Assembly (NCBI RefSeq): GCF_018128245.1
Contig: NZ_CP072378.1
Coordinates: 558,001-622,000, forward strand
Direction: 5' to 3'
Length of the DNA: 64,000 bases
Origin: Leptotrichia sp. oral taxon 221
GTDB lineage: Bacteria > Fusobacteriota > Fusobacteriia > Fusobacteriales > Leptotrichiaceae
Under the pieces are notes generated by a model, which did not search any database, had not been told where the DNA came from, and saw nothing but the letters and a program-made list of their open reading frames with translations. This document shows, piece by piece, positions 44,678 through 45,122 of this stretch (the stretch's first letter is position 1; each line of letters starts with the position of its first letter). Both the position numbers and the translations under genes were made by a program.

Positions 44678-44706
44678 TTGTCAAAAATTCCAAAATATAG
44701 TACAAT
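44678..44706 (+). promoter_or_regulatory. Promoter of the micropeptide pair
   Basis: TTGTCA 44678-44683 and TACAAT 44701-44706, 17-base spacing. The predicted start near 44713 leaves only about 13 bases before the first ATG. Confidence 0.65.
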
Positions 44707-44725
44707 TATGAGGCGGAGGGAGAAA

Positions 44726-44839
44726 ATGCACATGTTAAAAATTTGGGAGATAATTATTTTATTCATTACAACTATAGATTATCTGATAAAGATAATAAAA
44801 TGGATTATCAAAATGATTAGGAGGTTTAAAGGGGAATAA
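44726..44839 (+). CDS. Membrane micropeptide 1 (37 residues)
   Basis: A 37-residue ORF with a strong ribosome site (GGAGGGAG) six bases before ATG. It begins MHMLKIWEIIILFITTIDYL and ends in basic residues (KMIRRFKGE). It has one hydrophobic helix and a positively charged C-terminus, a build shared with type I toxins, small membrane regulators and signalling peptides. It resembles the next ORF in the motif TI[DE][YF]-xx-[KR]-xx-KWI-x-K, so the two appear paralogous. No homologue is recalled. The strong signals on both sides argue for a real gene. Confidence 0.6.
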   Translation: MHMLKIWEIIILFITTIDYLIKIIKWIIKMIRRFKGE

Positions 44840-44845
44840 TTCCCT
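44831..44845. repeat. Near-palindrome between the micropeptide genes
   Basis: GGGGAATAATTCCCT can form a small hairpin and overlaps the stop of the first micropeptide. It lies where a terminator or processing site for either strand could be. Confidence 0.35.
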
Positions 44846-44885
44846 GACTCCCTCCCTTCTATTTAATCAAAGGAGAGTGCTGAAT

Positions 44886-44975
44886 ATGGAATGGATTAGG
44901 GTAGCAACGATTATATTATGTATTGTAAAAACAATAGAATTTAGTTATCGATTTTTAAAGTGGATAAAAAAATAA
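44886..44975 (+). CDS. Membrane micropeptide 2 (29 residues)
   Basis: A 29-residue ORF beginning MEWIRVATIILCIVKTIEFS and ending LKWIKK. AAAGGAGAGTG lies nine or so bases upstream. It shares the TIEF..KWIKK block with micropeptide 1 (TIDY..KWIIK), with 46 bases between the two genes. It is one amphipathic or membrane helix with a basic end. A strong terminator overlaps its stop codon, which closes a compact two-gene unit starting at the promoter at 44678. Confidence 0.6.
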   Translation: MEWIRVATIILCIVKTIEFSYRFLKWIKK

Positions 44976-44998
44976 GAGCAATAATACTCTTATTTTTC
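44967..44998 (+). terminator. Terminator of the micropeptide unit
   Basis: AAAAATAAGAG pairs with CTCTTATTTTT (loop CAATAATA); the 5' arm includes the micropeptide 2 stop. Confidence 0.85.
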
Positions 44999-45122
44999 AC
45001 ACATGTTTTTATTTGGTAATTAATTATAAAATATTTTTGCAGAAATGTCAATAGACAAATTATTTTTTAAGGATATTAAATAAAAAATTTATAAATACTG
45101 AAAAAATGAAGGAGAAAAAACA

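Follow-up and report, generated by a model that had tools for sequence, protein, structure and literature searches.

The window, a stretch of 64,000 nucleotides from Leptotrichia sp. oral taxon 221 that forms part of genome G000, carries two short open reading frames near leuS. Among plasmid records, its leuS region is closest to one from Fusobacterium vincentii (69.5%), and seven of nine plasmid records that match the first 8 kb of the second G000 contig are from Leptotrichia (about 70% among the matches listed), in keeping with a Leptotrichia-like host. The candidate promoter of the peptide mRNA, P1 (TTGTCA-17-TACAAT, 44678..44706, plus strand), scores 10/12 in a promoter scan that returned five promoter-like sites for this region, with 4.9 expected by chance; 10 of the 14 Leptotrichia-like genomes retain P1. 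On the same strand follow a first Shine–Dalgarno sequence, SD1 (GGAGGGAG, 44715..44722), a direct repeat, DRa (44729..44746), which covers the start codon of ORF1, and ORF1 itself (44732..44839), which encodes an amphipathic cationic peptide. A pyrimidine tract (44840..44860, plus strand), whose positions 44848-44855 are complementary to SD1 and predicted to pair with it, separates ORF1 from the second Shine–Dalgarno sequence, SD2 (AGGAGA, 44871..44876, plus strand), and from ORF2 (44886..44975, plus strand), which encodes a hydrophobic cationic peptide of 29 aa, apparently a weak paralogue of ORF1. An earlier, sequence-only reading of this DNA had described the promoter and ORFs of 37 and 29 codons. 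All three are present, and the two ORFs sit inside longer frames with TTG or GTG starts in the ORF list; relatives favour the second Met (44732) over position 44726 as the start of ORF1, giving a peptide of 35 rather than 37 aa.

A hairpin with two perfectly complementary 11-nt arms (44968..44997) spans the ORF2 stop codon and is the predicted terminator of both RNAs at the locus. The earlier reading had also placed a terminator here: the hairpin exists, but it contains little G+C, and no terminator at the locus appeared in the terminator scan. The predicted fold of the mRNA has a z-score of -1.64, with 11 of 200 shuffles equally good. A weak plus-strand promoter, TAGACA-16-TATTAA, was seen by eye at 45052-45079; it may serve leuS, because the hairpin now separates leuS from P1.

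Back to back with this weak site lies a minus-strand promoter, TTGACA-17-TATAAT (45023..45051), which points into the hairpin from its right side and scores 12/12 in the promoter scan, one of only two such sites on both strands of the window. Between this promoter and the hairpin we found a second direct repeat, DRb (CACATGTTTTTATTTGG, 45000..45016), a copy of the sequence that spans the ORF1 start (CACATGTTAAAAATTTGG, 44729-44746). Promoter, repeat, complementarity and covariation together predict a minus-strand antisense RNA of ~52 nt (44966..45017), resembling RNA II. Since its 5′ end contains the ORF1-start repeat, the predicted RNA is complementary to the ORF1 start codon. The first 19 nt of this RNA were scanned against 9840 segments covering both strands of the window. 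The best energy belonged to its own template (-25.3 kcal/mol), followed by the ORF1 start (-16.6) as the best non-template target and by the next site at -13.9; the ORF2 start reached -5.8 kcal/mol.

These features bear on two earlier claims. The locus had been described as a compact unit, and the parts then listed hold; the unit is larger, as the minus-strand promoter, the direct repeats and the pyrimidine tract had been missed. An antisense RNA had been expected across 44840-44930, where the only nearby minus-strand promoter-like site scores 9/12 (44951-44922), within the number expected by chance. The candidate RNA would instead run from about 45017 into the shared hairpin, and its contact with ORF1 would be made by the repeat.

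A search of 33 genomes of the family gave credible matches at leuS, in the Leptotrichia-like group (n = 14: G000 and G004-G016). The whole unit occurs in four of these genomes (G000, G009, G013 and G016), with 0-4 differences in about 400 sites. In G015, ORF2 is intact and ORF1, the hairpin and the minus-strand promoter are gone; three genomes (G007, G012, G014) hold dead remnants of both ORFs; two (G006, G010) have P1 alone, directly before leuS; and the remaining four (G004, G005, G008, G011) have a different leuS promoter and no trace of the module. The stretch upstream of leuS seems to be exchanged between species, so we did not count the near-identity of the four units as constraint. The dead remnant upstream of leuS is almost identical in G007, G012 and G014 (L009, L010, L011), the leuS third positions of which differ by 16-26%. 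In G009 (L081) the leuS frame stops at codon 156, through either a sequencing error or a real break.

The module is also found in phages. A DNA search of phages matched the Fusobacterium phage phiHugo, in which ORF1 (34 aa, 65% identical), ORF2 (37 aa), the hairpin, the repeat and the minus-strand promoter lie between tail genes; the phiHugo repeat, ATGCATTCTTGG, occurs at the ORF1 start and again past the hairpin. The earlier reading held that ORFs this short could be overlooked in annotations, and annotation can miss the module: the CDS called at this place in phiHugo occupies a frame overlapping ORF1. Pattern scans recovered the module in five IMG/VR contigs (L103, L104, L106, L107 and L108, the last with the module downstream of an antirepressor gene); a first viral pattern scan had given no match, and the IMG/VR matches L102 and L105 contain no module. 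Contigs L104 and L108 share an IMG genome number and carry modules with somewhat different repeats, whose cross-pairing is predicted to be weaker than pairing with their own yet present (-15.1 and -16.0, phi and V108 types).

Profile searches of 98 genomes of the phylum, which by the above matches and the host of phiHugo is probably Fusobacteriota, detected both ORFs in nine: the four with the whole unit at leuS, and G051 (two loci), G068, G069, G070 and G071. The same searches found ORF2 alone in G015 and remnants in three genomes. The G068 module lies about 1 kb before a terminase gene, and that of G071 (L110:1026-2924) between frames that by eye resemble a sugar epimerase and a transposase. 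A tblastn search of phages returned phiHugo alone, and tblastn searches of plasmids returned either no match or four Acinetobacter records at E 9. Weak matches (69 from genomes and four other records) were re-examined, corrected for strand, with a permissive pairing test in which nine control copies of the module gave -16.9 to -24.0 kcal/mol. Nine of the 73 reached -15 or lower: L133 and L192 had roughly fitting positions and on reading proved to contain no module, and in the other seven the site or the promoter lies elsewhere. No module was seen by eye in L147, L148, L157, L183 or L186.

One reading of the locus takes ORF1 and ORF2 as leader peptides of leuS that attenuate leucyl-tRNA synthetase at the hairpin, as might be suggested by P1, which immediately precedes leuS in G006 and G010, and by ORF2, which lies in the leuS leader of G015. 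It is largely refuted by the copies in phages and other places away from leuS. The peptides are also low in Leu (3 of 35 residues in ORF1, 2 of 29 in ORF2), the intact pair is missing before leuS in 10 of the 14 Leptotrichia-like genomes, and in the seven module loci compared with Rfam no match reached the gathering score, the two matches at the window locus not being near it (E 7.3 and 9.3). We consider this reading very unlikely.

We measured the parts of eight loci: the window, phiHugo, V108 (the L108 contig), G071, both loci of G051 (the second being G051b), G068 and G069. In all eight, ORF1 is followed by ORF2 at a distance of 39-50 nt, a direct repeat covers the ORF1 start, and convergent promoters with a shared hairpin are predicted. 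Promoters were taken as the best match within a short stretch; on this basis the minus-strand promoter scores 9-12/12 with a spacing of 17 throughout, and an ACC stands 6-7 nt past its -10 element in each locus, while P1 reaches only 8/12 in G071 and G051b and 9/12 in G069. The hairpin overlaps the end of ORF2 and is stronger on the antisense strand at every locus, with only 2-3 G-C pairs. That diverged loci share both the order of the two ORFs and the parts flanking them argues that the pairing is more than chance.

The repeats covary. The 5′ end of each predicted antisense RNA pairs with its own ORF1 start at -16.6 to -24.0 kcal/mol, as against -2.3 to -12.8 with the ORF1 starts of other modules; the exception is the group of phi, V108 and G071, which have similar repeats and cross-pair at -15.1 to -22.2. 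Pairing with the RNA's own ORF2 start reaches only -5.1 to -9.3. In a permutation test with seven modules (G071 was left out because its repeat is the same as that of phi), the true assignment of antisense RNAs to ORF1 starts was the only one as good among 5040. The best-fitting ORF1 start is the ATG within the repeat, which in the window is 44732. A second interaction is predicted within the mRNA, where a Watson-Crick run of 8-11 nt joins the SD1 region to the pyrimidine tract past ORF1 in all eight loci. Fold models give this pairing a probability of 0.67-0.87 in seven loci and 0.04 in G051b. Runs between SD1 and the tracts of other loci are often equally long, and the covariation is weak: 68 of 5040 assignments are as good by run length and 504 of 5040 by energy. 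As a possible way of coupling ORF2 to ORF1, masking of the tract was modelled; it opens SD2 clearly in only three of the eight fold models (phi, V108 and G071).

Small genes of DNA-binding type start directly past the antisense promoter in several modules, and their Shine–Dalgarno sequence overlaps the antisense -35 element. That of phiHugo (L101:2846-3028) matches the ribbon-helix-helix family (PF01402, 1.3e-5), and those in G051 and G068 (L115, reverse strand; L116:1840-2013) are MazE-like below the cut-off. Such a gene is a possible third partner of the module.

Across the family, the ORF1 peptide has 34-37 aa, a net charge of +4 to +6 and a maximal helical moment of 0.70-0.82; the corresponding values for ORF2 are 29-39 aa, +4 to +6 and 0.41-0.57. 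The hydropathy and helical moment of both predicted peptides are compatible with the class of type I toxins. In an ungapped alignment of ORF1 and ORF2 of the window, the motifs TI[DE][YF] and KWI-x-K fall in the same columns, as the earlier reading had noticed. The ORF1 profile matches ORF2 of G070, G071 and G000 (E 1.5e-4, 2.4e-4 and 0.007), which supports, weakly, the paralogy it had proposed. Database searches gave little: the two window peptides had no match in PADLOC or NCBIfam, and they and a third peptide had none in Pfam at E 10. Four further peptides yielded a single sub-threshold Pfam match (DUF6967, E 0.16), and six peptides compared with PHROGs reached E 0.063-0.71 only.

Codon-level constraint, an earlier suggestion for a check, is seen for ORF2 in each informative comparison. 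Between G000 and G015, 18 of 87 bases differ and 21 of 29 residues are kept (dN 0.16, dS 0.81), and of 20,000 trials that placed the same changes at random, 1.4% retained as many residues; dN/dS values are 0.05/0.72 for G068-G069 and 0.04/0.66 for phi-V108, and the phi-window comparison is saturated (dN 0.44). For ORF1, dN/dS is 0.21/0.84 in G068-G069 and 0.25/1.71 in phi-window, and in both its frame is the best conserved of the three (22/35 residues against 17/34 and 16/34, and 20/31 against 13/30 and 12/30, respectively). The phi-V108 pair departs from this, with dN (0.15) above dS (0.06): the other frames, one of them the frame annotated in phiHugo, keep 28/33 and 26/33 residues against 23/34 for ORF1, and being as well or better conserved they leave the coding frame of ORF1 without support from this pair. 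The substitution patterns thus indicate that ORF2 is under purifying selection in every informative comparison and ORF1 in two of three. The earlier proposal of a duplication kept under selection finds support in these comparisons and in the profile matches.

The same data are relevant to a pair of antisense-controlled small membrane peptides that would be no toxins and would instead regulate an envelope or phage function under the same RNA control. The toxicity of the peptides is a prediction, ORF2 is the better conserved of the two ORFs in two comparisons and the only one left in G015, and the locus sits at leuS in several genomes. We nevertheless regard such a regulator as improbable, given the locations in phages, the decay in relatives and a control layout that the available text of PMC7472228 describes for toxins. 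The earlier reading had also offered a two-peptide bacteriocin-like agent, for which a single message encoding two peptides, both cationic and either amphipathic or hydrophobic, would be suitable. We inspected the neighbourhoods by reading (±2.5 kb in phiHugo, about 1.5 kb on each side of the other modules) and by a Pfam scan of eight neighbouring proteins, and saw no export or immunity gene in these stretches, except for a frame upstream of the G069 module that by eye resembles an ABC ATPase. This, with a predicted antisense control over the start codon, makes a bacteriocin hardly credible.

The closest parallel is the par system of pAD1 (Fst, RNA I and RNA II), which lies in another phylum. 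As far as it is described in the text available (PMC7472228), it has the same convergent promoters, shared terminator hairpin and short antisense RNA, with direct repeats over the toxin start, as predicted here. In par the Shine–Dalgarno sequence is also masked within the toxin mRNA; the pairing of SD1 with the tract that might correspond to this is predicted in seven of our eight loci and covaries weakly. In fst-Sm/srSm of Streptococcus mutans, too, repeats cover the start codon and the hairpin is shared, according to the accessible portion of PMC3543317; that system encodes a single Fst-type peptide, unlike the two found here. The Fst/Ldr family has one ORF per RNA I, whereas two are present at all eight of our loci. 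By eye, the window peptides lack the P-x-x-x-G motif of the Fst family (PF13955), and they have no Pfam match at E 10; PF13955 exceeded the cut-off in 0/33 genomes but likewise in 0/14 control genomes, so the genome test has little power. The loop of the window hairpin, CAAUAAUA, contains by eye no U-turn (YUNR), a motif that is also absent from some par homologues (PMC7472228, in the part at hand). The module is predicted to work like par/Fst, but its peptides appear to fall outside the Fst peptide family. For two toxins sharing a single antisense RNA, a precedent exists in yonT-yoyJ/SR6 of the Bacillus subtilis prophage SPbeta, where the toxins likewise come from a polycistronic message. Its layout, as given in the available text of PMC5848175, sets it apart from the module: the 100-nt SR6 extends over the 3′ end of one gene (yonT) and the 5′ end of the other (yoyJ).

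Judged from the DNA, in which the parts, their recurrence, the covarying repeats and the selection on coding are visible, the module is probably a par-like (Fst-type) type I toxin–antitoxin system with two peptides. Type I toxins are the best supported of the options named earlier, with the antisense RNA at another position. Our best reading is a new bicistronic par-like module that travels on phages; four Leptotrichia-like genomes keep it intact near leuS, and in others it is decaying.

For its mechanism we infer transcription, pairing in the cell, toxicity and control of ORF2 as follows. Transcription from P1 would yield a bicistronic mRNA (ORF1-ORF2) of about 285 nt, and the convergent promoter would yield the ~52-nt antisense RNA, the same hairpin ending both. 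The antisense RNA would pair with the mRNA at the hairpin, where the overlap is complete and takes in the last part of ORF2; the repeat would let it pair at the ORF1 start codon as well. We propose that this second pairing, by covering the start codon, blocks translation of ORF1, whose Shine–Dalgarno sequence would additionally be held by the pyrimidine tract between the ORFs. By the logic of par, an excess of antisense RNA would keep ORF1 off, and loss of the element would free the mRNA. A cell deprived of the antisense RNA, as when the phage or segment carrying it disappears, would make ORF1 and probably ORF2, and the peptides would enter its membrane with harmful effect. The predicted antisense RNA pairs with the 3′ end of ORF2 and the hairpin, not with the ORF2 start. 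G015 tolerates ORF2 although the antisense RNA is missing there, which makes ORF1 the more likely candidate for the main toxin.

A bolder version, which we hold only tentatively and think somewhat doubtful, is a true two-component system. Here neither peptide would suffice alone, the two would cooperate in the membrane, and a single RNA of ~50-60 nt, binding the beginning of ORF1 and the end of ORF2, would control both. The pyrimidine tract would switch between the two Shine–Dalgarno sites, and the diverging repeats of the phages would let several copies coexist in a cell without silencing one another. As far as the open literature shows, this would be the first type I system of the phylum.

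We noticed no report of the module in the open literature of PubMed Central, the scope of our search being open-access papers; the available part of a study of F. nucleatum RNAs (PMC11005410) names none, and two reviews link Fusobacteria with type III systems. According to the accessible text of PMC12390103, the type I systems known before came from Proteobacteria, Firmicutes and Tenericutes alone, with Cyanobacteria added in 2025. If our reading is true, the type I systems would gain a phylum from this covarying par-like module, seen here in Leptotrichia-like genomes and in Fusobacterium phages. It would also mean that the regulatory layout of par is separable from the Fst peptide, either through convergence or as a new toxin placed under an old RNA switch.
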